This document shows positions 15,901-61,580 of a stretch of DNA of 64,000 nucleotides, in pieces. Source of the DNA: Siphonodentalium dalli (taxonomy: Eukaryota; Mollusca; Scaphopoda; Gadilida; Siphonodentaliidae). The DNA lies in NCBI GenBank assembly GCA_032622095.1, contig CP136066.1, forward strand, positions 156,759,152-156,823,151, read 5' to 3'. The position numbers and the translations under genes are program-made. The notes under the pieces were generated by a model. That model searched no databases and had not been told where the DNA came from. It saw only the letters and a list, made by a program, of their open reading frames with translations. The first letter of the stretch is position 1. Every line of letters begins with the position of its first letter.

Positions 15901-18900
15901 CCTGCACAGCGGGTTAGCATCACTAAATTCACCCCCTGTGGACCTCATTCTGCATGGCTTCATCTGCTATGGGAGACCTGGACTCAGATTTAAATTCCCA
16001 GATGGCAAATATTGTGATGTGCACAGGATATTTAATGCTGCACCAGCGCTGCTCCCGTCATGACAGGGTTAACACATGGTAGTAAATGTGTCTTTTCGAT
16101 TATAACCTCATATGACCAGCTCACAGCATGCCATGGATAAAGTCGAAGTCAAGAAAATGTATCCCACATCATAACTTCAAAACACCATCCAGTTAGTAGC
16201 CATGTAGCTGTTAAAAGTCACCATCCAGTTAGTAATCATGTAGCTGTCAAAAGCACCATCCAGTTAGTAACCATGTAGCTGTTAAAACACCATCCAGTTA
16301 GTAACCATGTAGCTGTTAAAACACTATCCAGTTAGTAGCCATGTAGCTGTTAAAAGTTACACAACATCCATCCAATACAACCACTTATTCTTATTATATG
16401 GTTTATAACTTTTAGCTCCTCTTGACAAAGTAAGTTTTGAACTATTTCCATGGGTTGGCGTCCATTGTCCGTACTTCAACAATTTCCATTGTCACACCCT
16501 GCAGGCTACATTCCTCATCCGATCATCACCAAACTTCATATAAATCTATGCGGTAACCTCTCAATGGGAGCTATCAAATTTTTTGAATTTCATTGAAAAA
16601 CATGTCCGCCATTTTGAATTTTACATTTAATACATCCCTGCAGCACACCCTGCAGCCCACATTTATTGGAGAAATGTTTTGGACATTTACAGGCACGTTT
16701 ACGATCACTTCTAGATGGGAGCTACTCTTTGCATGACTAAATCCTTCAGCACACCCTATAACCAATATATTCCATCCGATTGATCCCAAAATTGATATGG
16801 ATCTTCGTTGTGAATTTTAGATGAGAGCTATCGAATTTCAATAAAAAACATAGCCACTGGTGGCCATCTTGGATTATACTCTTTGCACAACTAAATCCTT
16901 TTGCACACCCTCTACCCAACATATTCCATCCGATTGATCCCAAACTTCATACGGATTTTCAGGGTGACCTTCAGATGAGATCTATCAAATTTTAACTATT
17001 TTCAATAAAAACACAGCCACTGGCAGCCATCTTGGATTTTACTCTTGGATCAAGTAAATCCTTTGCCATGCCCTACAAGCAACATTTTTCATCTGATTCA
17101 TCCCAAACTTCATTTAAATCATCGGTCGAGTTCTAGATTTGGAGCTATCAAATTTTGCTGAATTTTATTTTAAAATGTGGCTGCCGGCAGCCATCTTGGA
17201 TTGTTTACCTCTAGTATTACTTAAACATTTCAACTTTCCGCATTCCTTATAACTCCATTGTCTGTTATGTATGACATTATTATGTATTATCTGCGCCACA
17301 TGTTGAGCTACAATATCATTGAAAGTGGCTAATGTTGGGGCGTAAATTGAACTTGAGCCGTTATTTATACCGTAATTGCCTATGTTAGTTTGTGTATAAC
17401 ACCTAGTTTGTAAATTACATCTTTACTCTGCCCCTACAGTGGGTATAAATTTCTACTGTGAGTGTAAATTTTCAATGCCATTTCATGGGTTAAACATTTA
17501 CATCCATAGTAGAACTACATCATAGTTACCAAATAGTTCTTCCGTTACATTGATTTTAAAATTGGAATATGATATCCTTTAAATATGACGAAAAGTGCTT
17601 GCATTTCAATCAAAAGTTACTTTCTATAGTGTTATGTGAACTACAGGAAACATATGAATGGGAATATCACATGACATGTTAGAAACAGGCTGACTCCATG
17701 ATGTAAAAGTATGCATCACCTTATAGCATCGTGATTGTGTCTCTCAGTGAGGATACAAAAGTAAACAGCTCAGTAGTTGAATTCGCAGAACAAAACTAAT
17801 AATTATAGCATAATTTAAATACACCCATAGTAGCTGAGAATACCAAATTTTAACCACTTGTGGTATTGTGGGACAACCACAATTCCACTCATGGTGAAAA
17901 TGTTATACTCTTGGCTACTATTAGTGTATTCGATATGACTTCTCCCTGATAACAGTCCACTTCTCCCTAATAATCAAATAGGGAGAATCGAAGTGACTTC
18001 TCCTAATTTGAAATATCTAGGCCGGTCCCTGATTGACACTTTCGTTTTATTTATCTTCTTTATACAGGTGCTAATTAAAGCTGTGCATAATCGCACAGAC
18101 ACTGATCCGGTGTCAGAAGAGTGCTCCATGAAGATATCATTACTCCCACTCAGGCTCAACATTGACCAGGTATATGTACTACATTTATATACATTTATAC
18201 AAAGCTTTATCTATTTTTCTCCTAAACAAAATTGGGGGCGGGGGGACTGTACAAATCAGCAGTGTCTGTCCGTCAAGCAGTGTTAGTGGGTTTACATTTG
18301 AGCCTTCGGTGGTCAGGAAAGTAGCAGGACAAAAGAAAGTTTGACATGATCGACCACCTAATGTCAAAATACCATCTAATGCTCATTATTTCGTACAATT
18401 TAGGAGTTAAGTCGTAGTCTTAAGTCTCCAAACCTGTCAAAAACAACAAAAGAAAGGCTATTAAAGACCAAATATATGGGTGTCCATGTGTCCGTCCGTG
18501 CATCAAGCCATCCGTCCATCCCAGAAGGTTTCCGGATGATAACTTTAGTTTTAGTTATCTGATTGTTTTAAAATTTCATATGTGAATTATCCACATGGAA
18601 ATTTAACTCAAGAGTTATGGTCCTCGTCTACTTAGAATTTGCTGATTATTTTGGTTAGGCCTTACCAATTTAATTAGTTGGTTTACGATCATGGGACCCA
18701 AAAAAATGTAGATGGAGGAGGGGGGAAAAAAAAAAACTCCTTTCGGGCTTATTCTATCCGGTATGAATTTTCACACGACATCACCACTGGAATTTTGTAA
18801 CTTAAAATGGACATGTTATTTACCCTGAACACTTTATTCAACTTAAACTTTCAAATATATTAATATTTAGTATATTAAATGAACAAATAAAACAACTGAC

Positions 18901-21900
18901 TGGATACCTTCCAATGTCAAGCAACATAAAAATAATAGTTTTAAAACAAAAATATATATAAAGATGGTCTATCTGCAAGTCGAAAATATGGGTATTTATC
19001 AAATAAACCACTATAGCTCGTTAATCAACAGGAACAATAAAAAATAAGATGACACCTGTACACGTAAAATTACTTCTTTTCTTTGTTTTTCAATAGTTAA
19101 TTCAGGGATTAATTGTGGTGAGGTCCAGTGAGGTCTGAGTTTTAGAGGTATTAAATTAGGAATTTCATGCTCTGAAAAATATACTACCTCAGTACAAACA
19201 GACAGACAGACCAGCTTTACAATTGACTAGAACTTTAAATAACTATTCTGTCTTAATCCACTGAAATATACTGAGAGACATTGTTTTTTAGGTTTCAGTT
19301 TAAATTTAAAAGAGTTGTGATGATTGGCGGTGTGATTTGCTAAGATGACTGCATGAGTGGTTAAGTTTTCTACAAGTATCCCTACTATTCAACAATGTCT
19401 GTCAGTATATTTCAGTTGATTAGGGCAGAGAAACTTAGTGTAAACAATATATATTTCTGTATCAAAGACATATTACATAATATGGTATATAATATACCGG
19501 TATAACATTTGAATGATCAGAAAAGGATTCGACATCAAGCATATGTCTTTTCTAGGTCGGTTCCATGGTGTTATCTGGTGCAACCAACCTGTATACGTTG
19601 TGGATTTTATGTTTGAATTATAAATACGAGTGACTAGCTAGTATCAATATAAATATTTTGGTATTTAATTAGAATACAAATTATGCATCATCATGGTTAA
19701 TTTAATTATGCAATATATAATCCGATATATTCGAATTGTGCAACTATATTGTCACATGTATTTAGAAGTCTACTAGTACTGTGTTAATGTGGTATCAAAT
19801 TTGTGTATTTCAGAAGCATGTCTCTAGTCATGGACAATTATAGGCAGGGAAACTTGGATTTAATAGACTACTGGATGAATAATGAGGAAAATGAGTAGTG
19901 TGAAGAAATTGAGAACTAAATCTGATAGATTGATTGGTATTAAACATCTAATTAAAAGCTCACAATACATGTATGGGCAAACAAGTTGGAGCTGCCCCAT
20001 AGACAAGTCCTAGAATTAAATCATTTAGTTCTCATTTTTTTCACATTCCTTTTCCCCCTCACAACTACTTCCAATCCAGCTTCCTTACACTTAATACAAA
20101 TTGGCCTAACAATGTCATACTGCTCCTGCAGTTTTAGAACATCATCGTCGAGGGCAAAGTCAGCTGATTTAGCCACTCCACAATGGAAGCACACCGGTTC
20201 TACTTTATATGTCTTACTAGCATAATAAGTAGTATTCCCTTCAAAGATACGTTACACACTGAACTACATGGTATATTCATCTTTATTCACAAGAAAGGAT
20301 TCTATGAGATCTGTTTAAAATTTATTATTTTGGTACGAAATAGCTTAAGTACCTTTTTGAATCATTATAACTCCGTCAAAGGTATCTTGCCCACTGAACT
20401 ATATGGTATATTATCCCAAGTAGGAGGGGTTAACTCTCTGAGTTGAAAAAAACGTACGGAAATTCTATGGTACATATCTTCTGTCATGTTCATGACCCGT
20501 GTAATCACGTGGTTTCTGACACGTAGTGAAAGAATCGCCATATTTTTTTCCCTCCTCACAGGACGGGTGCAAAAAGAATCTCTCACAAAGAATACGAAGC
20601 TAAGTTGCAGTTTGTATAGCAATAACAACATTATTTCTTTGCTTATAGTTGAAAATTATGTAACGATTCACATAAAGATTACGACGGTTTGTTCCGAATA
20701 TAATAATATCGGAATCGGTTGACTCGTTTCGTTTTAACCGACTTTGTCTTCCATAATTTTAATCGGTCAATGATTTAATATCCGTTTTCTGTGCAGACAA
20801 TGCAACGTTTCTGGCCTATTAAAGGCAGAACATTCGAGGCACCATTGGATATGACTAAAGACGCTGATCGTTTTCTTTATAACAAATCTATGGCATACAG
20901 GTGACGTGTTATTTAAGTTACCATGTGCGTTGACGGTGGTTAAAGGTATCACGAAATTAGGTGACTTATTTTCGAGTTCATTTTTTCGTTTGACGGCTTT
21001 CTTTATACGTTGACAATCATCGTCTGGTGTACAACTGACGGACAAAGCAGTGTTTAAACGCTTGTGAAATAGGCTGATAGGATTGTAAAATCCCGAATGT
21101 CACTTTGAACCTTTTTCACCCTGGATGATTAACAATGGGGCCGTTACTGCCTTGGTTGCCACATGGTAACATAACACAACAGGTGTATTTGTGATTGTTC
21201 GCAATCACATTAATTACTTTCACAGGACTGCTTATCGAGGTAAGACCAGGTTCATGAATCGCCTTCCCCGTAGCTCCCCTTGAAGTCGCTTCCCTCGTTT
21301 CGAGGTCCCAAGAGTTGAGAACGAAAGTCGATATATAGGGTTCCTCTAATTGGCGTAATTAGCACTCGGAGCGATAGTCACACCACACAGGACGCGGGTT
21401 GGGGCTACCCATCGAACCCGTAGCTCACACGAGTTGCTTCCCCTAGGACACGGACAAACTCGCGGGGAAGGATCCAGAGACTTTTTGTTTGGGGACACCT
21501 GTTCTGTATTTGAGTATGTGCCCATATAAATTTGGATGTTAAAATATTCAGGACTGGATACTTGATTGTGCAAATAAAGGCTCCATATTATAGACTATAT
21601 ATCATCTGCGGGCTGATGATTTGCATTACTAGGACATTTTGTTGAATTGTAGAAAAATTCCTTGAAAATATGGAAGATCCAACTGGAATAAATACTATCT
21701 ACATGGAATTTGGGGACATTTGGGTCTCTATAGTTTGGGCACCCAAACCTGTAACAGGTATCAAAACATCCCTGTATCCTTCTCTGACTTGCCGATATAT
21801 CGTGTTCCTCTAATTGGCGTAATTAGCACTCGGGGCGATAGTCACACCAAACAGGCGTGGGTTGGGGCTACCCATTGAACCCATGAGTCACATTGGTGCG

Positions 21901-24256
21901 CTCCCTGGACTATCGAATGGGACGTCAATCTGCTTCTGCGGGTCGACCGTTGGCTGTTGACATGCCCCGGACGGCTGTGACCACTGAGCTCTACTAAAAC
22001 ACTCGACACACGCCGTCCATCGCTACAAGTCGTCATCTCGGGGTCAGCGCGGCTGGGGGATACACCCTCGGTGATCCCTGACCATGCTCTCCGGTGCCTT
22101 ATGATCGTAGTGTGTGGAAATTTGGGCTAAAATTACTAGTCGAATGGCCATTTTACTTTGTCTCAATTCCAATTAGGAGACTTTTTCTCAATTTATTACA
22201 TTTACGCAATTATTTGGCACCTGAAAGTTTATCCTCCATGCCTTCTGCCCCAGCTGGGCTTGGAATGGGATCACAGTTCACAGGCTTGTTTCCTCCTTAT
22301 TATAAGTCCCCACTTCCGGGGGCTTGGCTGACAGGTTACTGGCCGCATTCTGGCCAACAGCTGCCAGTAACTTCGGGTTTGATTTTAAATGAAAACAAAA
22401 GATCTTATTCCCTGACGCCATTATAGCAGGAAGCTTGCTTGGGAACTGGTACCTACTAACCTCCCATCGCCAGTTCGGTCGGTTGGATATCGGGATCGGT
22501 CCTGCTGCTGCTCCACCCCGAGATGTACAGGCTCTGGACATTCCTCCGGGGGGTCCCCAATGACCAGACCTCACATGCAATTAGAAATGAAGCTTGTCGT
22601 GGTGTATTGTGCTGTTAACACTCCATCGACGGATGGAGATCAGGATCAGATCGAGCAGTCGCTCCAGCACGAGGTGAAAGGGCTTTCGACATTCCTTTCG
22701 GGTCACCTTTACATGCGCTTACGAGGGAGCTCAGTTAGTTGTTCAGGGTTCTCTGATGCAGCCAAGCGCAGGAAGAAAACTAATGTCGAATTTTGATTAG
22801 CAAATAACCTCAGATTGACATGTTTGATAGCATTGTTCTACAATCATTTACAATTTAACAGAACATCAGAGTGCTTTCCCTTGTTTCGAGGGTTCCAAGG
22901 AAGCGATAGAAACCTTTACGACCAGGACACTGTCACTTGTCGATGTATAGTGTTCCCTTCATTGGCGTAATTAACACTCAGGATGATAGTCCCACCAAAC
23001 AGGTCGCGGGTTGGGGCTACCCATCGAACCCATTGACCGCATTTGGTGGGCTTTCTGGACTATTGACAGGGACTCCAAGTCGGATACTAAGGGACGACTG
23101 TTGGCATACCCTGGGACAGTCAAATGAGGAAATAGGATACAAGTTGCATGGCTTTTGTTAGCATTTGGGTAGCAACTTGCCCTGTGATGCCGGTCAGTTT
23201 GTACCCTGCTTAACGTCGTCAGAGATGGGTGGTTATGCCATCGGACTGCACACTTGGCGACCTGGGTTCGACCATCCTGAGAGGTATTCAACCATTTTAC
23301 TGTTCTCGGGTTGGGATGTGTTCAACTTTTTGCTTTAGAAGTGGTTGCTTCTTTCCATGTTCCATCCAGCTCTTTCATGGTCACGGGCTTTGCTGGAGAA
23401 TGTCTATAGTCATTCATATCACTAGATTAGTATATGACTCTCGCCCTTTCATTTTCCTGACTTTTTAAGACGTGTTCTGGACTGGTTCGGGTGCTCGATA
23501 GGGTAAATATTTACATCTCGATTTGGGACACAAGAATCAGAGATCAACAAGCATACATGCTTTATCTCCGACCTCGCTGTGTTTCAGTAATAGTTACGAA
23601 TGACATATATTTTGTCTTCAGGTTGCTTTCAGTGCTAACTCAACATGGATTTCACTTTTGTTGTCCAGTCATACATAGATGAGTCCATTATCCATGGTTC
23701 GACATATGCTCATTTTCAGAACACTGTTGACATGAGGTCTCGTTCAGCACCCCACTCGGTCCTTTGCTGACCTCAGCGATTGCCAATGCAGGATAATGTT
23801 GCACCTGTGGGGCAGCATATGAATCGTGTTGGGCACAATTCATAAAGTTTCATTACATACCTGCCGTCGGTTTCTGCTGGTTTTGGGCTTGTGCCACAAT
23901 CCTGATGCCTCGTTAGTCCAATTTTTGTTTTGTGGATTTCCACCTTAACGATATTGGAATTTCGGTTCCTGGATGCCTTTCTGTCATGGATTCAGTAGCC
24001 TGTGATTGGTCATCGGGCTCTCATCGTGTACTGGGACACGGCCCAACCCACTCACGATTTGGGTCGGGGTGGGTTCTATTGTTTTTAAGGGGGGTCTTCG
24101 TTATTACTTGCGGCTTTTGCTGCCTGGGTTAGCCTGTTAGCTGCGGTATTAGTATTTAGCCATCCATGGGTTTATAATACCCGGCTGGGGATTTCTTGTC
24201 AACGGGTATTTTTCTATTTCCATTTCCTTTGAACATGGATGCTTCTCCTCCCCTTT

Positions 24257-24289
<33 letters not shown>

Positions 24290-27200
24290 GTTACCCGTAC
24301 CTTTCCCGGCAAGTACTCGGCTGATACATTATTAGCCCTAAGTTCCGATGCGAATGTCGTATCCGACTATCCATCTCCAGGTCTTCTGAAGCTATTTACT
24401 TTACTTGCAGGGGTCTTAAACTCTTTAAGTGGCCACTTTTTGTTCGTTTGTGAGTGCTGACAGGTATTAGTTTAGGATGGAATATTACATTGGCTTATGG
24501 TCCTATTGTGCATGTGTGTATATATATATATATGTATATACATATATATCTATATGTCTGTGCATGTGTATGTATATATTGTAGGTTATCAGGTCAATCC
24601 AGTTCTTTGATTCAGATGCATAGCGGTGTTTTTGTTTCCTCGTGGCCTCCACCTGTTAGAAAATTCTATGCTTTACCATATAGTTCAGTGGGCAAGATAC
24701 CTTTGACGGAGATACAATATTTTCCTAAAAAAGTAAAATATATATCTCCTAGAAGTATATTGCCCACTGAACGCTGAGCTCCCTCCCAGGGTTTCGCACC
24801 CACCCCGCTCACGAGGAATGTCCTACTGGGGATAAAAAATATGGCGATTCTTTCACTACGTGTCAGAAACCACGTGATTACACGGGTCATGAACATGACA
24901 GAAGATATGTACCATAGAATTTCCGTACGTTTTTTTCAACTCGGAGAGTTAACCCCTCCTACTTGGGATAATATACCATATAGTTCAGTGGGCAAGATAC
25001 TTCTAGGAGATATATATTTTACTTTTTTAGGAAAATATTGTTTATATGACGTAGCAAGTCAAGGTCATTTGTTCACTTGTTATGTATATAAGCAAGTGGG
25101 GACACAGTCAAGATCTCTTTTTCTTCTTGTGACTCGAAGGGAAGTACACGCTATGAGCAAATGAAAACCACATATTATTGTCGGCTTCATTTAACAATTC
25201 CGTTCCAATTTGTTTAATTTGTTGTGACATCGTTTCATTTTTGGGAAACGACACAATAATTATTAAAATAATATCAGAGTGACAATTTCATTCAATTTCG
25301 GTTTCGGAGCATGTGGTTTAGAATTCCGAATTGAATTCGAAATTGAATTCGTCTGTATATATGCAGCCGTTCACGTGTTGAACTCTCTTTGGGAATGCCT
25401 ATACAGCACAGTTGCTATGTTATCTCTGTTCTTGTGGTTTTAGAATGTATGTATTAGAACATTCAACCAGTGAGACAACATTGCAGTTATAACTTTGTTT
25501 ATGTGGAAATTGCCACGTGACAACATTCGTTTTGTTTACGTCGAAATTCTGAAATTGTCACTCACACATCTGTTTCATGTTGACATATGTAGCAAAATTA
25601 GGGATCAGGTTTGGGTCCTTTTTTCGTTTATCTAGGAATTAACTCACTTGTGTGGTTTTGCTTGGCTCATAGTTCACTATGAATTCGTTTACAATACAAT
25701 ACACATTGAGATTGTTTGCCAACAAAATAACTTTTTTGTCAGATCACTGACACAATTTCACACGTAATAATGTGACACATCAGTCACCTAATTTCCTGGA
25801 ATATTTTTAGGTCACTTTCCTGATCCTTATAACTGGTCATAAAACAAGCAATTTTCTTCCTCGTATGGCCTCGGTTTCAGTCACCCCATTGTCAAGCAGG
25901 TTCAGGCTAATCAAATTCCTCGTTCCATGCAGACCTTGAGGGGCCCCGCCGCATACTTCACCAATGTCACTGTAGGCAAGGCGCCATACTGTTCCGAGGG
26001 TGGGTTCCAGTATGCACGGATCCGACCATGCTCGCCCGCTGCTGCTGGATCCTACCTCAGATTTTTTGTCCTCCCATCTCCCTTTCACAAGCAGGTGGGA
26101 CGTACAAAGATCTGTCAGCCCCCTAGGGAGCAACTTAACTGGTATCGCATCACGTCACAATTTGCCATCCAAACTTGGATAATAGCCATGCATTTTAGTA
26201 TGAATTTTATGTGACGTTGAGATTGAGAACAAAATACTTTCATCATGTCAATGTGAGGCTCTTTATTGGATAATCAAAATTTCCAAAGTAAGTTGCTCCC
26301 TGGCGTCTACCCTCGGGTGGAATTGCTGTTAAGACCATTTCCTGGGACTCTGCATGGCCGTAAAATGCTTGCTCTTTGACGGGAGGTGAGTTGTAGCCAG
26401 TGTAGCCACTGGGGCTGTGGCAATTCATTCTATGTGTATTTGACTGATCTGCCCATTCAACATGTAGTTCAATGCGGATTGTGTTCATTTAGAAACATTA
26501 AGTGTGGTGTCATCATGTTGGTGAGGTATCTGGATTTGTGTCGTGACCAAGTATGTCGCCACCGCCCTACTGGCTGCACGGTATGATTCAGCTTCACGTC
26601 AAGGTTTAAGCTGGCTCCAGTTAGGGGGGGAAACAGTCTGAACATTAATCATACCTCGATGTCTCTTCCCAGGCTTTACGCAGCCCTGTTTATTCAGTTT
26701 TTTTAACTTTAAAGATAACAAAATCCAAAAATTGTTTGGATCTGCCGATCCCACATTTAGATTACAATTCTAATTAACAGGGCTGCTTGCCATCCAATTC
26801 GAATCCTGATTCTCACTTTGGTTTTCGGAGAGATCTTGTGGCTCTAAAAAAGAGCTAGAGTTAATTGCAAGGCATCGAGGTGTGGCAGACACAGTTTCTC
26901 GCCTCCGATTTGGGTCCTGGGAGGTTCGAGGGGAGACCGAGCATTGGGCCACCAGACAGCGCGCCGGCTGATGCCGGATAATCTCGGGTGCTGTCCATAA
27001 CAGTGTCCATAGCACAGTCATCGGCCGGGGCAGAGACTTTTAACAAACACTCAATTTGTTCTACAACCATGAGGTTTTACCAGGGCTCAAACTTATTACC
27101 TTTCCACTTGTCACTGATTAGCATTGTCCTTTGTTTATGGGTGACCGTTCGATTTTTCTGGTGATAAATTTACACAGATCATCTTTCGCCCTTACTACGG

Positions 27201-30200
27201 TTCCATGGGGCGAAACACCAAGCCTTGGATTCCTTGCGAGTGTCAATCTGGCTTTCTGCAGTTATAGGCTCTTTTTTCTGCGAACCAAGTTGTGACTCAC
27301 GTTTCTCTGTGCGTAGAACATTCATCAGCGACTTTTAACAAACACTCAATTTGTTCTACAACCATGAGGTTTTACCAGGGCTCAAACTTATTACCTTTCC
27401 ACTTGTCACTGATTAGCATTGTCCTTTGTTTATGGGTGACCGTTCGATTTTTCTGGTGATAAATTTACACAGATCATCTTTCGCCCTTACTACGGTTCCA
27501 TGGGGCGAAACACCAAGCCTTGGATTCCTTGCGAGTGTCAATCTGGCTTTCTGCAGTTATAGGCTCTTTTTTCTGCGAACCAAGTTGTGACTCACGTTTC
27601 TCTGTGCGTAGAACATTCATCAGCTTTTGACTCTACAGTCTTAGGACAATCCCAATGGGCTTTTTACCTGTAGTACCTGTTAGATCTATTCTCGCTCAAT
27701 ATCATGGCTTTACAGTTTGGGTTAGCTTATCAGGTTACGATATAGACAATTGAACTCGCGCAATCTTCTAGGGTGGCGGTACGGTAGGTAATAACCTGTT
27801 CCATGTGAACAGGTGCATTTCAGAACTTTGAGCCTTGCATCATGCCAACAACACACGTTGATGCCCTGCTTGAAGGAGTCCTTTGTAGGGGTTCCACGAT
27901 TAGTCGTATAATCGATGAACCGTTGATAAAGCCGATCATCGATTACCATTTATATCGTCGATTAATATGCATTATTTAATTTGACATCAGGACATGTCCA
28001 GTATTATTGAATACCGTGTTTGTTTTACAGTTTAATCTACAACCGATGGGTTAACAACCTGTGATCGCATATCAACGAGATTCCGTCAACAGGAGTACTA
28101 CTAACCTATGTTGCAAACAGTCTGCAGTTCATTTGATGATGCGCCATGGTTACTCTTCATGTTGTTGTTAATTCTACAAATTGGCGGCCCTGCAGCTTTG
28201 AAATTATGGCGATGTCATTGTATATTTCTACTTGTAAGGCGGAACTACATCTTTGATATATGCCGACTGTCACTGTCTTCAATGAGCTGAATGCACTTGC
28301 CCTTGAATCTGATTGAACCAATGGGAGTTGATTGAAATTCTCTGGAAACTAGGGAACCTATGGCATTTTAATCAGCAATGTTCTCCATGATGTCATTTGA
28401 GTATACTGTGCTTGAATAAGTATCCTTAGAGGTTAATTGTATAGGCTATTGCGTATCATGCAGTGAATGCTGAATGAACCTCGATATTATCAAATACAAA
28501 CCGTCGGCCATTCATTATGCATTCCTACTTTTATATGGTTTGCATGTTTGGCTATTCAGACACTGAAATTCATATTTACGTTCGTTCTAATGAACTCACA
28601 AATTCTATTATCACCATAACATGGCCGATAATTGTGCAGGTATAGAATACATTCTGTTCATTGGTCAATAAAAGTGGTTTGTGATGCACTTCATTAATGT
28701 AAACATGTCCTGAGCCGATTCCTCAAACAACAGCGACATTGTAGTTACCCAGCACCAAGACAATAGGCCATATTACAGAATACTTCCACTGATGGTGTTA
28801 GGTACGATTAATCGATTATAGTCTATTGTTGCCGACCGATTGTCGATTATCAAAATAAATAGTCGTGGCACCTCTGGAATCGGGCATTATTGTACTCAGT
28901 GCTCCTTTTTTGACATGCTGTCTTGCATTACTCAAACAGACGGGCAATTCGTCTAACGGCGCACATGAGACAATCATTGTTGGCGACAGAGTCTCTGCCC
29001 GCGGGGAGGACCTAGGGTCCGGGTCCTCGCTATATGAGCGACAGACAACCGTCCGACCATACACACATGTGACTGGTCTTCGGTAAATTTTGCCTTCTGT
29101 TCACACCTCTGGCATACCTCCTCGACCTCATGTCGACCGAGTATATGCTTTCTCCTTGGTCGTTGCGGTGGGCTAAAAAACAATAACTGCTCATGGACCC
29201 GGGCCCTTCGGCTGTTAAGAACAATCAGTGAATAACAAGCAGACACAATCTTCTTGTTATCCATAGTCTGGTTGTTTTTGGGACCTTAATCATCCATGGC
29301 CTGTTCCTTCTTTCAGACTGTTTGAAGTAGTTCCATCACGATGGGTCTCCTCCTTCTACACATTTTCTAATATGTTACATGCAGACTGCAAAGTATTTCT
29401 TTGAATCAAGTGTACGTGTAACTGCATACACTATTGGATTGACAGGCTGTGGAGGTAGTTACAACTCAGGACTCTCCGAACTTTTTCTTCTCGATTGTTT
29501 CGATACCAGAAAACATTTTGGGAATTTCCAAGTCCTATAACGCTCTTCATGGACTTCGTTACCTGGGGTTTTTGTTACCAGTTTCCAGACTTAAAGTAAC
29601 TACCAATCATGGGCATTGTCGGACGGAATATGGCCTCTGTCCGGTGTATTAATTCACTGAAGTACAATACTGTCATTTTGATGGTCAGTCCGAAAATACT
29701 TCTTTTGCGCCTTTATCAGTTGGTCGAGTTAGACACCGTTACTGCCAGTAGGTCGCAAACCTTACAATCTTGATGCGGTGGCTATTTAATTCTGGGTTTT
29801 CTTCACCATACATGACTTGGTGGTATGTTTCTAATCGTATTTACAGTTGCCACTTCCTCGTTTTGCATCCATATTGACCATTCAGGTAACAATAGATTTC
29901 CTTCCTCTGGTGTCGAAACGTTGGGATATCTTGGTTCGTTCAGTCACATACCATGGAGCAGGGTGGTCTATGCTTTCTGCATATGACCAGCTTACTCCAG
30001 GGAGGAGGTGGCACATGCATGTACCTGCATATGACCTTGGGGAGATTTCACAATTACAGGTTTGTCTGACTTCAGAACCAAAGGGGGGGGGGTGCATAGA
30101 TTCAGCCAATGGGCTCATTCTTCCACTTTCTCCACTCTACCTTGTACCATCAATAAAATTTGCAAATCGGTACCTTTTGGATCCATTTGTTGCTACTCAG

Positions 30201-33200
30201 CAGGTTCAAATTAATTACTCTTAACTACAATACAATAGTTTCTCATTCCTCGCAGCCTCCTCCTATGAGTTGATTCTACCATGTAGTTCAGTGTGTAACG
30301 TATCTTTGAAGGGAATATAACATTTTCAATAGATACTTACACACTGAACTCACAGGTCCCTCCCAAATTGGGATTTTCCCTCCCCGCTGCTCGGTCACAC
30401 CCCTCGAGTCTTGTAAGAGGATGAAAAAGAGATCTTGACTGTGTCCCCACTTGCTTATATACATAACAAGTGAACAAATGACCTTGACCTGCTACGTCAT
30501 ATAAATAATGATTCAAAAAGGTACTTAAGCTATTTCGTACCAAAATAATAAATTTTAAACGGATCTCATAGAATCCTTTCTTGTGAATAAAGATGAATAT
30601 ACCATGTAGTTCAGTGTGTAAGTATCTTATAGGGAATATGTATTTTCTATTGAAAATGTTATTTCCATAGGTGAGAGGCATGTCATAGACCCTCTCACAA
30701 CAACAGTGGACTCTAACGGATCATTTAAGAATAGTTTGGAACCACATGTGTACATTTCGGCATCTTTTACCATTTTCACTGCCATAATTACATCACTAGT
30801 GAGTTTCAAATTTGCGTACACACACCGTGGTTTGTCACATTCAACGCACATAATCACATCTCGAACCTTGTTCACGGTTAACAATTTTGAATTTGCAGCA
30901 TCAACTTGAGATGAGACCGACACAAGCTGTTTTGATGGGCGCTTTAGGTCATTAGTGTCCTTCCCATAAACATCCGAGAATGGCTGATAGTGGTCATCTG
31001 TGTTGTTAGCAAGAGTCGGGTCGGGTACAAACTGCAGTGAGTTGTACAAGTCATCAGGAAGCCTGGGAGGGTTTATAAGACAGTACAAACAGTTTGCGAT
31101 GTCAGCAAGTGCACACTTCTTGACCTGATATATATAATGTCTTTTCCGACAGTGTTTCTCCACAAAGTCCTTCAGTTTGGACGACTTCTCCAAATCAGCA
31201 GCAGTGAGACGAGACGCATCTAGAGTTGGATCGATTACAGTCTTCACAATTTCAAAGAATGTTTCAACTGCAGCATCAGTAGCTGTATCCTCAGTTTGGA
31301 CCTTTTCACCTTTCAGTTTCATCTTTGAGAATCTATCATTTAGAACATTTAGCACTGGTTCAACTCTTTTGGTTAGTCCTTCAGGGTACCTCGTTGCAAG
31401 CTTTCTTGAATCGTCGAGAGAAGAAATTCGTTTCATCTTCATTTCAAGTGCTGGTGTCATACGAATACGCTCAAGGGCCACATTTTGTAATGCTAAGTTA
31501 AGTATAGCATTGGCCCACTCAGCTAAATTGCACCAACTAGCCATTGGAGCGGTTCTTCCCGTGATGAACAAATCTAAGTCCAAATGAAGAAAAATTGCAA
31601 TGGAAGCCAACTGTACACTTCCATAGGTTGTCCGGTGATCGCGACCACCATCAGTATATGCTATGAGTATAGGATTGTCACTGTTAACATTGTTGTCTGA
31701 ATGGCGCCCCCTGAGCAGTTGCGTGAGTTCGCATCCATGATGGATCACATTTGATGGTCTAAAGATTTTGTCTTTGACGGTGACGTGTATAGTTCCTGAA
31801 AAGAATGATGTGGAAATATCTTTGGGAATATCACACTTGAAGGCAACAGAGGGTATAGCCCCGCAAACATGAAAGTCATGATCCAAGGCATCCAAGCGGT
31901 TATCATCTGGTTTTGTGAGTGAACCATTATGTGGTCTCACATTAGTGCTCACGGGTTTGTTTGGCTCTCCTATAGGAATGATGGCCTTGTCATCCAGCCA
32001 AAAGAAATCGCTTGATGCTCTCCATTTTATCGCAAACTCCCTTAAGTAACGCAGTTGTGCTCCACAATAATGCGAATCAACATGATCACCTCTCAATTGC
32101 CTGGTCTGAATGCGAAACTTAACTTTGAATCAACCAGTATGCTGCATTGCCCGCTTTGTCGTTGGGTGGGATGGCCAAAATTGTAATCGAACCCACTCTG
32201 TGCATGGTATAGGAGTATCTTCTGGGACCCGTTTGGTAATTATTTCCACCAAATGCTCAACACTGATAGCCATTGGAAGATACAACTGTTCCCCATGACG
32301 TCTCTCGTGAACTGGTAAAGTTAACTCGTTAAAGTATTTCTCGAGCTCTGCCCAAAATATGTCAAACTTTGTTCCATCCATGTTACCGTTTAACTTCCTC
32401 AAGTCCCAAGTGATTTCAGGGTCGTCAAGTGCCAAGAATGTCTCTAAGCGTTCATTAACTTCTTCTTGTTTGACAGTCTCAGCTAAACTACAGTCATTAG
32501 TAAGGAATCGGTACGTGTTTCGGAGAACAGCTGGTTGTGTTTTCACAGATGTCTGATATTTATTAAAGAAATCGTGCTTCATCGCCCGTGTCGCGTACTG
32601 AGGGAGACATTTATGTATCTTCTGTACTGCAGCAAGTGTCTTATCCTCACTATAATCACTGGCATCCTCCGGTAGTTTCCATATGAAGTGCACTGTACCA
32701 AGGTAGTTTCCATAAAAATATGAATAAAGTTTCACCTTGTGACTAAGCTTTAAATTATCCAAGAATTGTCTGCGTTTGGGTTTATCGCGTGGCTCAAATT
32801 TGTGAAGCGAAATCAATTCATTAGCCACAGCATCATTTAATGCAGCATATTCTGGTCGAACAACTTTCACAATATCAACGTTGACGAGGGAAAAGTTATT
32901 GTCGGGCGACCTGAGTGACGATTCAGAATGATTAGCATTTGCTGTCCTTTTTGCTTGTTGACTTAGAAAATCATAGTACTTCTGAAAAGCCGTTATCAGT
33001 TGGCCAACACTGTCATTCAGCTTAGAGTATTTCAACATCCACGGCATCATCATCAACTCGGTTAATTGATCTATGTGGACCTTCAGTGTAGACGCCTCTA
33101 TCTGAAGAAAAGAAAAAGAGAATAATAAGTACCAATTATATACTCGCATCATGTATCAGTGTGGAAAGTTAACATGCCATGAATCTCTACTCCAGCTGAC

Positions 33201-36200
33201 GCCCGTAGATCTCTACGGGCGTCAGCTGGAGCAGAAATTCATGGCATGATCTAACATGCCCCATAAATCAAGAACTGAATTTAATTTCCATTCAATGACA
33301 TTGAACCTAAAAAAAATATTAGTACATTCATGTCTCATGATATCATTCTAACAACTTTCCTATGAGTAATCAAATCATAAATTCAAAAATGTGGTATTTG
33401 TATTTCAGTATATTCACCTGTATTCAGTTCAAAAGACAACCTTGAGCCCCGGTTTATTTTGTCCACTGAATGGCAAGCATACACATGTGGCAACATATGT
33501 CAGCTCAAATTTTAGCAAAATCATGTCAGAAACGATTTTCAAACAGGCTACGAAAATTAACACTCCAGTTGAAATCCCTGTAAATGCTTCATAAATAAGT
33601 TGCTATATAACTTATAAGGCCATGGACATAACTTTAATATATATACTATATTTATCACCCAACATGAAACTCACATATCGATTAATGATTGTATTAATGA
33701 CCAAATAAAGTTTGATCAAATCGATACTTTACTTCCGATTGAATACGGTAAATGAAAATTGCGGAATGGAACCGGTACCCGAAACGAACAGGTGCTCGGT
33801 ACCCGAAACGAACAGGTGCTCTGATCCTAGTATAGTGAATTTCCTATTGATTGATTGCGTTCGTTTTTCCAATACTTTGGGGTATTAATTGTCCATTTAA
33901 AAGGTGTTGATACCACGATTGTATAACTTTAGACCACATTCTTTCAAAATATATTAGTTTGAATTTAAATTAAAATACCACAAGTATGCCTACTATAGTT
34001 AGGCTAGTATTATCATAGTTGCTGGTTGTTATTTGTGTTTTACTGGCTAATACCTTTGGTTTCTTTTTATGTCCTCTGATGTGGTCGTAATAGCCAGAAA
34101 ATCGCTTGAACATTTCTGGAAATGGTATACTTCGGTCAACCAGGTTCTCATGGAAAGGTGTAAACCACCACAGAGTCTCCGACAATGTTTTGACGACCTT
34201 CGCTCCAATAGTCTCCACATTGTCCTTATTAAATGAGAACTTTTTTCCCGGAACATGGAAATTACATCATTGTGGAGCCGAAAATCGTCCCTCATCCGTG
34301 TTGATTCAATCTGTTCAGGGTAGCATTCTGCATTCTGGTTGCACCTCTGTGCAGTCATAAGCACATCGAACGCGCTGGGCACGGGGGACTGAACAGGGAT
34401 TTTGTCCATAGGCCTATTGTCAACTTGAATGACGATGTATTTTGCCTCAAACCCGGATACAACGTGCATAGGTACATCAATTGATAGTTCATGACCAATG
34501 TCATTCTCAGCAGACGATGTTTTAGCTGTTATTCTTTTGATGACATATACATCTCCCACGTCCTTTATAAGTTCGGAAACATTTGAACTTAAATCAACCT
34601 CTTTTAGTTTTTGGGATAAAACCGTACCGCCAACGGTCACAATTTTTACACTAAAATACATTCTTTAAAATAAATCAGCAGACATGCTTTCCGGTTTCAG
34701 TTTCGCACCATTCAAAAAGTAGGAATCCGGACTCAGCACGAGTCCGCAGATGTCACCGTTTGCTACACATTACATAAAAAACGTTAAACGTGTGCCGGGA
34801 TGAGAATCCAATGCCATAATAAGTCACATATCTAACAGATAACTGTCGGGAATTTCCTTAAAAAGTTGTCGGCGGGTTCGTAAACCAAGCAATTAAATTG
34901 CTGGCGCCTTACCGGGTGATAACTTTAGTTTTAGTTGTCTGATTGTTTTCAAATTGTGTATGTGGATTAGCAACATGAAAATACAGGCCAAGTTCAAATT
35001 GAGATTCGGTCCGCCCATTTTTGCCAGAGTTATGGTCCTTGTCGACTTAGAATTTCCCGATTATTTTGGTTTTCGGGTGATAGCTTTAGTTATAGTAATC
35101 TGTTTCTTTTTTTCAATATTTGCACCAGCACAGCTAAAGCATCATTGACGAGTAGTTATCTCATAGGAAATGTTCAGATAATAAGTTTAACAAACGATTA
35201 TGTTAAACTTATTATTTTAAAAATTTCCTCAATAAATCTGGCTCCTTCTGCACTTGTATATATCTGTTGTCTGCTTGTATGACCTTAACATCCCTCCAAA
35301 TCAATAATAGACCATTCTGATGTACACTTTTTAACTGACTTGGAGCTTCTATGTAGCATAGAAAGGGTTAAACCCAAGAAAAAAAATATTTTATATTTGA
35401 TTCTCTTCTGTTATCAGGGTTCACTTTACATAAACTCTTCAATAAAATATTAATTTGATTCTTCGCTTTTTCAGGGTTCTCTATTCTTCCTTCGAAAATT
35501 CTTAACAGAACTCTCATCCAGTGAACCAGCTCCACCAAAGCCCAGTAGTCCAAAGAACGTTCCGACAACCCGAGCAGCCGACTCCGGAGTCTCCTCCTCC
35601 CCACCCGTACCTGCCCCTGTGATGAGCCTAGGTCAGACCGATTCTGTTCCAAAACAACCAGATAGCTCCGATGAACCAGAAAGTCTCGTTATGTTCGACG
35701 AGCTGGATCCTACCGCTGAACCGAAACCAGAGGATGAGACAGAAGATAATATTGCATCTTCTCAGCCTGTTTTCATCAAGTGAGTACCAAGGTTTTGCGC
35801 TGTCGGTGGCCATAATTCACAGGCCCCTGGGGAAAAAATATTAAAATACCAATATAGACTATACTAGTGACACTTGTATAGTCTATATTTGACTCAGGGG
35901 CCTAGCCTTGGCTAGTCTGGAATCCTGACCACAAACAGCTCTGCATTTGAGGTCAGATACTACGGCCCACTCACTTACATTAAGCAAACTTTGTCATTCT
36001 CTGCACCATATATGAAATGGCTGCCAATACCAGTTTGACACATAGATAAACGGAGACATAGTATATTTAACAAAATGGGAAGCAAATAGAGTGCACACGA
36101 TTTTAGATTTTTTCGACGCAAATGGTAACATACGCCAGATTTCACAATTCGGCAAGAAATTCCCAATGGAACCGAATTATCTGCACTTCATATCTATAAC

Positions 36201-39200
36201 TAATTGTATTGTGAAATGAAATGCATGAACATCTCATGATGGATAATAGCCAAACACATAGACCTGGTATATCTGATAGTTTCTGTATTATTGCAGGAGT
36301 TAAGGGGCATCGATGCCAGTACCTAAAACGCTCAAGTGAAACAACAAAGTGGCTAGATAATTGGTATGAATTTTCAATAATATACGCACAATGGCCTAAC
36401 TTGACAGCTGCTCTGTTTAAATGTGGAACAATAAAGGTCAAACTAATATGGTTTCAATAAAAAATTACCAGCATCCATAAAATATTAGGTACCAAGAATA
36501 CCACAAAAAAACTTATTTCTGCAATAAAGAAACAAACTATAAAACACCTGTTATTGGATTGTCACCTAACAAATATTCTGAGAAGAGCTGCTTAATACAA
36601 TACATATAAATGTAAGAGATCAAACTCTTATTTGGAATCTCGACAAAAGTGCATTAAATTTTTCCGCCAAGGAGAAGCCCTCAACTGAACTATATGGATT
36701 ACGTCTCCGGCCTTGTGTCAATCAGGAGGGTTAAAATTTTATTGCTGTGCCGACCCCACTCACACCCGTGTCCAGATTAGTCTCGCATGAATACACCCGC
36801 ATTCTATCTATTGTCTAGTCAGTTTTTATTCCTCCTCGCCAGGACAGGATCGTTTCTATTTTCTCAAGGTTGTATCTTTCTGTGTTGCGAGTTTATCGAC
36901 TCAATATTTATTGTTGATTTTACAAACTTGCAATTTATTGTACCCGATAGTTAATTAATATTTCTCACATCCGAAACGGGAACTTTTTTCGTTTCACTGT
37001 ATCCGTAATTTGTTTCCGTGTTTTCTGTTTTCCTCAAGACGGCTTTATCTTCCAACAATTGGAATTAAGATGGCCATCTTGACAATGACTAAAGAAGCAC
37101 ATAGCTTACTTGTGGCAAAACCACATAGTGCATATTGTGCCACACATACGGCGTGATGACTATCATGACTTACAATTGAGGACGCAATGTAGTACGGTAT
37201 GCGATATCTCCTAATTTCGTGCTACACGTGTTTCACTTTACATAAGTTTCCGTCGACCCGCTTCGGTTATTTCGTAAGTTCCGTTGCTTTGTATCCTAAT
37301 GTATACTGCCAAATCATACATGGCACTGCTCTGTTAATTCGCAGAAAGTTGCACAGGACAGCCATATCCTCCTTTGTAATAATTTACATGAATAAATACG
37401 AAAGATAGTGCTTGTTATCACTATCAGATGACAATTCACATTTCTTTCGACTGAGCGATCTGTAACATTGTTTTAACGATCAATACCTGCGAATCTACGC
37501 CCGCCAGTATGTATGAGCGCGTGGTCTTGTTAGACACATGGCAAATGTAATAACACATTACATCGACTTCAAGGTATTTAGAAAATTCTGCCTTGTCTAT
37601 CACGATTAAATATCATATAACACTCCGTAACAGGGGGATGGTATTCGTTATCACATATATAACCACACTTCAAATTGTTGTGTTGTCTGACGTTCTAAAT
37701 ATTGTGTTGCATTCTTTACATCCATGTATGTACAGTTTGGGTTACTACGAACTATTGTTCACCAACTGCAATGAAGTGAAAACTTTGTAGCCTGACACTA
37801 AGCCATCTTACCGTAGGCTCTAATATGCCTCGGCATGGGCGAGCTTGCTATAATGTATTGCACGCCGTAATAGTTCCATACATTGTACATGACAATCATA
37901 TGGTATCAGGGCCTCATGTATGCTGTCAGAACTGACTACTAGTATGCTTACATATGGTGAACAGTTTTCATCCCAATACTGACATACTTTGCAGTTTCAT
38001 CAGTGAATGATAACGGCAAACAGCGAAATAGAAAGAATACATATTGTCACGTGCTCCAGATTCACTGCCAATAGTCTTTCCAGTAGCAACCATCACTTGG
38101 CTCACTAACTTCTATTTCCACATATATCAAAACGATATTCTGCCAAATAGCTTTCACTCGTGTATGATGCGCAGTTACATGCAACACATTTATATTGCGC
38201 AGAATATCAGAAAGGACTGCATTTGTATTGTTACATGTCTAAAGCGAGCTTACATGCGCAGCGTTTATATTGCGCACATCTACTGCCAATATATTTCCGA
38301 AACCGGCCAAGACATGGCTCTTCGTCTATTGTCACATATCCACTGATTATGTGACAAAACGATTCGATACAATCATGACGAAAATGAAGGCATTCGTATC
38401 TTCACGTCCGCTGTAAGCGCACTTTCCTAACGGAAACCGCCTAGTTCTTGCCTATGTGCATTCGGAACTCATCGTCCTCATATACGAGAAAAGACAGTAT
38501 CTTACCTGTCATAGCAGGTAAGATCACGTGGCCAGGGGTATAACGTGATTTTATATTAACCTTACTTTATACTCAATAACCTAGGTTGTATTGTGTTATG
38601 TATATTAACCTTGCTTTGTTATAACTAACAGCATGTCTTGCAGTCGAACATGATTCGAATTTGATGGCCACACACCGTGCAGGTTGCTCATTCACGGGTG
38701 TATTACTTGTTATAGTTGGGTAAGGGCATATTAGTCAATGATTACCTACTTTGAGCAACCGTACCAGTCTTTACCTCGGGCAGGACCAGTTCTGGCCCCC
38801 CAGGTCCTGCTACGGCAGTGTGAACCAATGGTAGGCGGGTGCTGCAAGTGGTTGATTCGGGAAACCAATCTTCATGGGCGATTGCTCCGGCACCTTTCTC
38901 TCAGGTGCCTAATGGTAGTGGCAATACGATTATTAAATTTCGAAAAAACTCACATCGATATACTATTATTCCACATAGAGTGAAATTTCCATCAGTATTT
39001 TGATTTCGGCCTGGATTCCTGCCACGAAGATCTGTTTATAGGCCACCACAATTATTGGGCACCTGGGAGTAGCCTTTGGCGGCTGTTCTGGGTGGGGAAG
39101 ACTCGTTGTCACGTGACGCTCTTGCTCTCATAGACATAGCGCACCAGCCAAATGGCCTTCTGACTCTTCCCCATGGTGCAGTGGCCCACATCATTACAAG

Positions 39201-42200
39201 ATGGGGTCCAGTCGATCCCCTGGAATCGTAATACCTTCGGGATACATTCGGGCCTGCTCCTCCGCCGTCATGTGATCATAGTGGTATGTCATCGACATTT
39301 ATTTCAGTTTGGTCAGGACCACCTGCATTTGGGGGATTCCATGGAAGGGGCTTCCTCTGATCAAATGGCTCATCAGAACTTATTCCCTCTGGCCTTGGGG
39401 GCGCAGCTTGATGATGCCCCAGAATTTGAGGGGGTGACCTTGGACAGGACATAGCTACTTATCCCAAATGCAAGAGCATTTGTCTTGCGTCGAACCATTT
39501 CAGAGTAGGCCTCTTCCACAGTCTGGTATCCCAACCTGATGCAGCCAATTCTGTTGGCTGGCGTCGATCTTGACATGCTTCTCTGCATCGCGTGGCGTCG
39601 GCAGGTTTGACGACGATGAGCAAGAATCGCGGGTCGACAGTGGGTCACCAGGCACACTGTCGGACGAGGATTCTGATGTTCCGCTGGTAAGTGATTTTGT
39701 ACAGGATGAGGATACAGGTTGATATCTTATATTGCTTCATTTAATTCAACAATTTGCAAGTACAAGTATTTATCTCAGTCAGGAAAGATCCAGCACTGTA
39801 GCCTTTGGAGGATGTTCTGGGTGGGGAAGTGAAGAGTTGTTGCGTGCCTCCAAGAGCTGCTCCAGCCTTCTGCCTCTTCCCCACGGTGCAGTGGCCCACA
39901 TCTCCACAGATGGGGTCCAGCCACTCCCCTGGAATCGTACACCTTCGGGATACCTCTAGGCCACTCCTCCACCGGTAGGCTGAATGTTCTGGGTGGGGAA
40001 GACTTGTTGTTGCGTGCCTCCAAGTGCTGCACCAACCAACCTTCTAACTCTTCCCCATGGTGCAGTGGCCCACATCTCCACAAGATGGGGTCCAATCCCC
40101 TGGAATCGTAATACCTTAGGGATACCTCCAGACCACTCCTTCACCGGTAGGAAAGAAAGGCTGAATGATCTGGGTGGGGAAGACTTGTTGCGTGCCTCCA
40201 AGAGCTGCACCAACCAGCCTTCTATCTCTTCCCCACGGTGCAGTGGCCCACATCTCCACACGGTGGGGTCCAATCTCCTGGAATCGTAATACCTTCGGGA
40301 TACCTCCAGGCCACTCCTTCACCGGTCATTTTGCAATTTTGATCATTCTGCTACATTTGATCATTTCGAAATGTACCGACACTCGTTATGTGCGCCATCA
40401 TAGATCACTGATGCTTCTATGCTTGTTCATCAAGTCCTCAGTGGTGTTCTCTAATCCCATATATACTGGTATGCAATGATACCTTGGATCATGATGGCGT
40501 TCCCTGCTCTCTACATTATACGAGGCTGGAGTACAGATGTGTGGCATGATATAATGAAACCTCATACCTCGCTATGATATCTGCAGCATATCATTTTTAT
40601 ATCTGGTTTGTGTATCACAGGGAGCAATTTACTTTCGATATCTGATTAGCAAATAATCTCACATTGACATGATTAGATAGCATTTTTATAACATCATACA
40701 TGTATAAAAAATTCCTCGCTATTACCGGTATCCACATTTCAGTGGCAAATCGCGATGCGATTCCAGTTAATTTGCTCCCTGGTGTATCATAAGCATTCTG
40801 ATATCTTATGGCATACACAATGGCTGCATGTGACATCAGTTCATAATGTGAACTGTCGAGAGAGCGAAGAAGATAACAAAGAGAATAGGATGCAGCAAAG
40901 TTATACTTGCTCGGTTGTCTCGCTAGCATGAATTATATGGCACTACCTGGGATGTTTATTCCAAAAACAAGGGGGGGGGGGGTACACATTTGAGCAATGT
41001 CGTAATCTGAATTGGGAGCTCTTTCACGTAACATAATCATATCTGATTCATGACTAAATCACATTTACATGAATCCTGTTTCGGAAGAGTACATTCCCAT
41101 CGAATTTGGATATTAATTAACTTTATTGCTCGTGCCTCCTCCTGGGCTGGCATTCTAATCCATATAGTTCAGTTGAGGGCTTCTCCTTGGCGGAAAAATA
41201 TAATATTTATAAATAATATTACTTTTTCCTTAAGGGAAGCCCGAAACTGAACTATCATAGATCCCTCCCATGGTGGTGCCATTCCCAACCCCGCGACTCG
41301 CAAATCTCATGATTAAGTCGGAAATAAAAAACTGACTAGACAATAGATAGAATGCGGGTGTATTCATGCGAGACTAATCTGGACACGGGTGTGAGTGGGG
41401 TCGGCACAGCAATAAAATTTTAACCCTCCTGATTGACACAAGGCCGGAGACGTAATCCATATAGTTCAGTTTCGGGCTTCCCTTAAGGAAAAAGTAATAT
41501 TATTTATAAATATTATATTTCACGCAAATTTTTATATAATATTGTTTATTTCGCTGTAAATCCACTACCCTAATAAACCTACTTTTAGAGTGTTCATCAG
41601 TTCTGCAAACAGTTACTCAAAAGAATATTATATAATATTCCAACATGTTGAAAATAAAAATAGGTATGCAGATTGATGGGATATACTGAAACCTATATGT
41701 GGATCTGACAAAATAGAGAGCTCACCGTGGGCCACCATTGCCACACACTCTGCCGACTAAAATTTCTTTCCTCTGTCTCACACCCCCCCTTTGAATCCCG
41801 AAATGACACTATTATAAATTGTATCACTGTTCCTTCCATGTAATATGTCAAAAACTATACAAACAATCCATAGTATCCAGACGAACACAATTCTGAAAAG
41901 TGTAGATATGTCAATTTCACAAGTGACAACCATAAATGAGATCAGAACCATAATCATCAAAAATATTGAACAACAAATACATCAAGAACTATTAGGCTAA
42001 TAATGCTATCTTACTTTCAGAAATAGAAAGAGCTCTTTCCATCAATGTATCACATTATTATAATCAATAAATTTGAAAAATGATCAAGGAAATATGGGTT
42101 GATACAAAAATCGGACTTGGCACTGAAAGGGTTAAACATATAAAAAAAATGTCTGTCTCTGTCTAACAACTTAGAAATGAATCTACTTTCAGGTCTTTCA

Positions 42201-60841: not shown

Positions 60842-61580
60842 ATACGCCCGTTTTGAAAAAAAAACAACGTATTATGTTATTGGATCGGACATCAGATTCT
60901 GTCTGTCTGTCCATCCGCTTTTTTGTTTGTTTCCAGATGACTTTAGTAAGTCTGAACTGAATGGAATGAAATTTGGTATCTGGGTTTACTAGCACAAAAT
61001 ACAGGTAAGTTCGAATTCGGGTTCCGCCTGCCAATTTTCACCAGAGTTATTGCCCTTTTCGTTTGAATTTGTATTCAATTTTCATTTCCAGATGATAACT
61101 TTAGTAAATCTGTTCTGAATGGAATGAAATTAGGTATGTGAGTTTACTAGCCCAATATACAGGTCAAATGCGAATTTGGGTTCCGCCTGCCAATTTTGGC
61201 CAGAGTTATGGTCCTTGTTGAATTAGAATTTGCCGATTATTTTTGTTTCTGGATGATAACTTTAGTTTTAGTTGTCTGACTGTTTTCAAATTTTATATGT
61301 AGATTAGTCACATAAAAATACAGGTCAAGGTTGAATTTGGATTTGGTCCGCCCATTTTTGCCAGAGGTATGGTCCTTGTCGACTTAGAATTTGCCGATTA
61401 TTTTGGTTTCCAGGTGATAACTTTAGTTTTAGTTATCTGTTCACCTATTTTAACCACAGTTATGGTGCTTGTTGACTTATAATTTGACAATTATTTTTGT
61501 TTCCGGGTGATAGCTTTAGTGATAGTAATCATTTGTTTTAAAATTTGGTATATGTATTACTCGTTATGGCCCTTTGTTGA
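60842..61580. repeat. Tandem-repeat element F6 (copy 5), longest
   Basis: CGCCCGTTTTGAAAAAAAAA start, GTATTATGTTATTGGATCGG, then about five monomers with GATAACTTTAGT, ACAGGTCAA, GGTCCGCCCATTTTTGCC and AGAGTTATGGTCCTTGT. Confidence 0.65.

Follow-up and report, generated by a model that had tools for sequence, protein, structure and literature searches.

A nest of mobile elements in an ATG2 intron of the scaphopod Siphonodentalium dalli

The 17,305-bp ATG2 intron contained in the 64,000-nucleotide stretch of Siphonodentalium dalli DNA analyzed here (the window) is nearly all mobile DNA nested in mobile DNA (Table 1). A cut-and-paste transposon with a transposase-like gene lies between the halves of an older dispersed repeat, the gene is interrupted by an element with DIRS1-type ends (C), and the left inverted repeat of C is split by a second element with such ends (B). 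The transposon and its inserts fill 94% of the intron, which bears out the statement of a first-pass annotation that the nest makes up most of its 17.3 kb. A four-level nest had been described there; the nest and its strict order are upheld by uninterrupted copies found in the same genome (2.23 Gb in 9 contigs searched), and the number of levels is raised to five by the outer repeat. An order of insertion in which the outer repeat was followed by the transposon, then C and then B is thus supported. The nest is not a product of chance, since B and C are multi-copy families, each with at least 40 scored copies having sharp and identical ends.

Table 1. Features of the ATG2 intron and of its neighbourhood, in window coordinates (rc, reverse complement)
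Feature	Position	Strand	Remarks
ATG2 intron (level 0)	18170..35474	+	sequence; joined exons match ATG2_CAD
Older dispersed repeat, left part (level 1)	18529..18657	+	ends in TTA target copy 18655-18657
Older dispersed repeat, right part	34909..35110	+	starts with second TTA copy 34909-34911
Cut-and-paste transposon with transposase-like gene (level 2)	18658..34908	-	ends common to other loci
Transposon left terminal inverted repeat	18658..18688	+	24/31 match to right
Transposon right terminal inverted repeat	34878..34908	-	31 bp, imperfect
Upstream open frame, 204 aa	34047..34661	-	conserved with other transposon copies
Transposase-like gene, 5' part	30630..33152	-	95% to L042 protein, one premature stop
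Transposase-like gene, 3' end	20024..20232 (20233)	-	residues 838-907 of L042 copy, 100%
Element C (level 3)	20233..30664	+	DIRS1-type ends; empty site in four loci; right end common to 19 loci
C left inverted repeat, outer part	20236..20367	+	96% to rc of 30505-30638
C left inverted repeat, inner part, severed by B	25044..25133	+	matches rc of 30413-30509
C right inverted repeat, intact, with right extension	30413..30661	-	repeat comparison
C internal complementary region	30268..30350	+	left-end complement joined to right-end complement
Perfect 295-bp tandem duplication in C	27031..27620	+	L027 copy has one unit
Element B (level 4), 4,676 bp	20368..25043	+	DIRS1-type ends; splits left repeat of C
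B left inverted repeat	20382..20548	+	166/167 identical to right
B right inverted repeat	24834..25000	-	right extension 25001-25040
B internal complementary region	24674..24772	+	rc of 20364-20408, then rc of 24983-25041
Element A, next intron	36658-41523 (about)		third element with DIRS1-type ends; same plan, junction ATT

The host intron, the outer repeat and the transposon

The intron is bordered by GT...AG and the exons on either side join in phase as NIDQ/GSLFF (at greater length LRLNIDQ/GSLFFLRKF, the slash marking the junction). In the joined peptide, a match to the Pfam family ATG2_CAD spans the junction with an E-value of 7e-8, in agreement with the earlier claim that the flanking exons are in phase. 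When the left and right parts of the older dispersed repeat were joined with a single TTA (18529-18657 and 34912-35110), they aligned without a break to positions ~61202-61451 of the window. This repeat is a fifth, outer level, into which the transposon inserted. The rest of the intron ends also contains repeats that are present at many other loci.

Both marks of a DDE-type cut-and-paste element, namely terminal inverted repeats and a target duplication of fixed length, were found in the transposon: it has 31-bp ends and is flanked on both sides by an intact TTA duplication. Its right boundary, ending at 34909-34911, is common to 6 other loci and its left boundary, starting near 18655, to 39 loci. 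Without C the transposon measures 5,822 bp, and two uninterrupted copies located elsewhere are of ~5.9-6.0 kb. No known domain was recognized in its 204-aa upstream frame. A near-perfect palindrome of 76 bp (33173-33248) is present in the transposon and in its other copies.

The transposase-like protein has seven relatives in the genome, six of which are 35-65% identical to the first. The DDK, DHD, DGGPDHR and ER motifs are invariant among the seven, as are the acidic residues D391/D392, D428/D430, D505/D509 and E549; a single-sequence fold of the main half reached a mean pLDDT of only 31. Neither the intact 907-aa copy nor the seven-member alignment matched a Pfam, NCBIfam or PDB family, and none of the six relatives matched Pfam. 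The designation "DDE transposase" given in the first-pass annotation is therefore left without a profile match, but it is plausible: the inverted ends, the TTA duplication and the conserved TDGGPDH...ER motif suggest that the protein is likely a DDE-type enzyme.

Insertion sites, order and age of C and B

The position of C was analyzed in four other copies of the transposase-like gene (loci L042, L043, L044 and L047), which are 93-99% identical to the window in the pieces. In these copies the site reads GTAGTTTCC with no break, and the predicted empty site, AAGTAGTTTCCATAGG, is their sequence at the position of C. The empty site GTAG^TTTCC announced for C was thus found letter for letter. Moreover, one open frame of 908 codons runs through this site in L042 and the two window parts of the gene match it, confirming that the frame rejoins across C. 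On this comparison, the window parts are those of one gene interrupted by C.

The inverted terminal repeats of C, in two pieces, are 94-99% identical. Its end triplets are TAT on the left and TTT, that of the target, on the right; among 19 copies, 16 have TTT and 3 have TAT as the right triplet, and the next base is usually C. Written by the triplet rule, the junction is GTTA[TAT]TCCC, the target GTAG[TTT]CC, the left end GTAG[TAT]TCCC and the right end GTTA[TTT]CC. The internal complementary region has a 21-bp deletion relative to most sampled copies: the bases missing from its right half (30317-30349) are exactly present in 13 of 19 sampled copies, and the window copy may for this reason be unable to form its circle. 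At another locus (L021 1107-1782, C9:65.197 Mb), the C family is represented by two tandem right ends, the first one running into sequence that resembles the complementary region, which is possibly a trace of circle-junction recombination.

The left repeat of C is split by B at 20368/25041 and the right repeat is whole. A 293-bp query made of the rejoined left arm found a full-length match at all 40 scored left arms (97-99% identity), and the right arms of C at 19 further loci are unbroken at the position matching the site of B. These results are in agreement with the claims that C contains an empty site for B and that its left repeat rejoins across B. For B, the triplet rule gives the junction ATTG[TAT]CTCC, the target ATTA[TTT]ATATG and the right end ATTG[TTT]ATATG; the right triplet, TTT, is that of the target, whereas the left one reads TAA in the window and TAT in all 19 relatives. 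B also contains a 93-171-bp unit in three diverged copies (21327-23105), which are conserved in other B copies. At a further locus (L016 225-1511), a B copy abuts a 429-aa open frame with rve (integrase core) and Integrase_H2C2 (zinc-binding) domains, so that B also occurs in or beside LTR-type elements.

As the copies of B and C are numerous and nearly identical, abundant repeats could have been wrongly joined in one intron during assembly. The region includes features that would fit such an error, namely a run of 31 G inside B (24258-24288), likely a trouble spot for sequencing, and the perfect tandem duplication of C (27031-27620), which is single in the L027 copy and so would be either private to the window copy or an assembly error. 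However, the pieces are all of the length seen in their families: the transposon as given above, and C with 5,759 bp without B, or 5,464 bp when the 295-bp duplicate is also removed, against mostly 5.3-5.6 kb in 21 paired-end copies. Every junction obeys the triplet rule exactly, the TTA duplication is intact, and a wrong join would not yield the predicted empty sites. An artefactual nest is therefore highly improbable.

The mutation load of the nested elements was compared by counting private substitutions, i.e. sites where the window copy alone departs from the state common to its relatives. The transposon has 29 in 2,654 sites (1.09%), scored against only four relatives, C has 5 in 1,649 (0.30%) and B has 2 in 1,600 (0.12%). 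The load of the transposon differs from that of C (P=0.004) and of B (P=0.0001); C and B do not differ significantly (P=0.45), so that their relative order is given by the nesting alone. The fall of the private load inwards agrees with the nesting and is not a strict dating, and some private differences of the transposon may be older than its insertion.

The divergence between the two inverted repeats of each element had been proposed as a clock. For C this was rejected. Compared with the other left arms listed, its own shows 97-100% identity, reaching 100% over 258-259 bp in three cases, whereas left and right arms differ by the same amount whichever sampled right arm is taken, with few exceptions (96.7% over 90 bp and 98.4% over 125 bp). 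The arm-to-arm differences are thus largely fixed in the family, as variants common to other copies, and for this reason they do not measure the time elapsed since C inserted.

Coding content and mobility of B and C

In DIRS1-like elements, two complementary regions come together at a 3-bp circular junction, and no target duplication arises on integration (PMC3266345). B and C follow this plan: both are bounded by inverted terminal repeats, and next to the right repeat, on its inner side, lies a complementary region which is the reverse complement of both ends joined. The short circular junction is TAT in both, and the empty sites and triplets show no target duplication and a target that is a triplet of the junction type. 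Coding for RT-RNase H-methyltransferase and tyrosine recombinase, which also defines DIRS1-like elements, was found in neither: no Pfam domain was detected in six read-through frames of B or C, and neither has a long open frame. A match of B to the PRD1 spike protein (E-value 0.008) was below its cut-off and was taken as due to chance. The earlier term "DIRS-like" is accordingly true of the ends and does not extend to coding capacity, and because the coding is missing B and C are described here as non-coding elements with DIRS1-type ends rather than as DIRS1-like retrotransposons. Element A, in the next intron, is a third family of this kind in the window: its inverted repeats (36659-36827 and 41327-41493) are 96% identical, its complementary region lies at 41156-41255, ATT is found at both ends, and no Pfam domain was detected in six frames.

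The size of B and C (4.7 and 5.8 kb) and their ends fit published molluscan DIRS1-like elements (PMC3266345), and the two could be decayed autonomous retrotransposons of that group. Nevertheless, their private substitutions are far too few for the erasure of genes, and no long frame was found inside any sampled B or C copy, with a mean divergence of ~1.5% among these copies. The interiors of the other copies were judged from 1.5-kb flanks and match positions; in addition, 39 other loci carry a 1-kb interior stretch of C at 98-99% identity. Decay is consequently an unlikely explanation. Since the copies are so young and yet devoid of genes, B and C look, and most likely are, non-autonomous families. 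Elsewhere, the genome contains many open recombinase frames, and none of the 150 recombinase matches listed fell inside the 21 paired-end C copies when compared by eye. A coding member of the B or C family may exist unseen.

B and C might also move as DNA circles, like Cryptons, with a tyrosine recombinase as the sole enzyme and without reverse transcription. Such a mode would be consistent with the lack of an RT domain in B and C, and integration through a 3-bp junction would need the recombinase only. Both families have nevertheless kept the complementary region, for which the DIRS replication model would account and which would serve no evident purpose in a DNA-only cycle (PMC3266345), and their high copy number would favour a step in which copies are made. 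We consider a recombinase-only mode quite unlikely. Most likely, B and C would have spread with reverse transcriptase and recombinase supplied by autonomous elements at other places in the genome.

The following course of events is proposed. With the older dispersed repeat already present in the ATG2 intron, the cut-and-paste transposon entered it, probably by DDE chemistry, and duplicated TTA. C then entered near the 3' end of the transposon gene, the TAT of its circle junction recombining with a genomic TTT without duplication, presumably under the action of a tyrosine recombinase provided in trans. B entered in the same way at a TTT in the left inverted repeat of C. In this putative recombinase step, the element seems to supply the left triplet and the target the right one. 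The resulting nest would be passive DNA, presumably removed by splicing with the intron. The account as a whole, with its three successive insertions, non-autonomous B and C and passive nest, is very probably correct.

Implications and comparison with known elements

Transposons nested in introns are of a known kind and represent an ordinary route of intron growth. The present case of stepwise growth is unusually complete and can be tested from within: for every inner insertion an empty site is present in the same genome, and the private mutation load declines from one level to the next. Two further points are indicated: elements with DIRS1-type ends can be abundant yet non-coding, and would then escape annotation based on RT or recombinase domains, and the divergence between their arms is no safe clock. 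Some novelty may lie in the presence of large, abundant, recently spread and apparently non-coding families with complete DIRS1-type ends, perhaps unexpected to specialists. A literature search for the phrases "non-autonomous DIRS" and "nonautonomous DIRS" found no use of them in the papers covered, and such elements may still have been reported. In a broader reading, A, B and C would form a class of large (4.7-5.8 kb) non-coding DIRS1-type parasites with many hundreds of copies, having retained nothing but the ends and the complementary region; the surrounding transposon would represent a TTA-duplicating transposase superfamily absent from Pfam; we give this reading about an even chance.

PIF/Harbinger DNA transposons have short inverted ends and a 3-bp duplication of TWA type (PMC4482050). 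The window transposon resembles them by its short inverted ends and by the TTA on both sides, which fits the TWA rule, but its transposase has no Pfam match and no Myb-like second protein was recognized. Because TTA fits PIF/Harbinger while the protein matches no such profile, assignment to a superfamily is withheld. The Kolobok superfamily comprises animal DDD/E transposons with T/A-rich targets and 5'-RR...YY-3' termini (PMC9587614). The GG...CC termini of the window transposon fit this pattern; Kolobok, in contrast, duplicates TTAA where only TTA is duplicated here, and again no profile is matched.

B and C share with LgDIRS1-3 of Lottia and AcaDIRS1-2 of Aplysia the inverted repeats, the right extension, the complementary regions, the 3-bp junction, the absence of duplication and a size of 4.7-5.8 kb (PMC3266345). 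Their junction is TAT, whereas that of the published molluscan elements is mostly ATT (PMC3266345). They differ from DIRS1-like elements by lacking RT, RNase H, methyltransferase and recombinase domains as well as any long frame. A non-coding relative reliant on enzymes acting in trans, as B and C would be, is known in TOC1 of Chlamydomonas, a non-autonomous tyrosine recombinase (YR) element. TOC1 has the split direct repeats of the PAT type, whereas B and C have inverted repeats and a complementary region.
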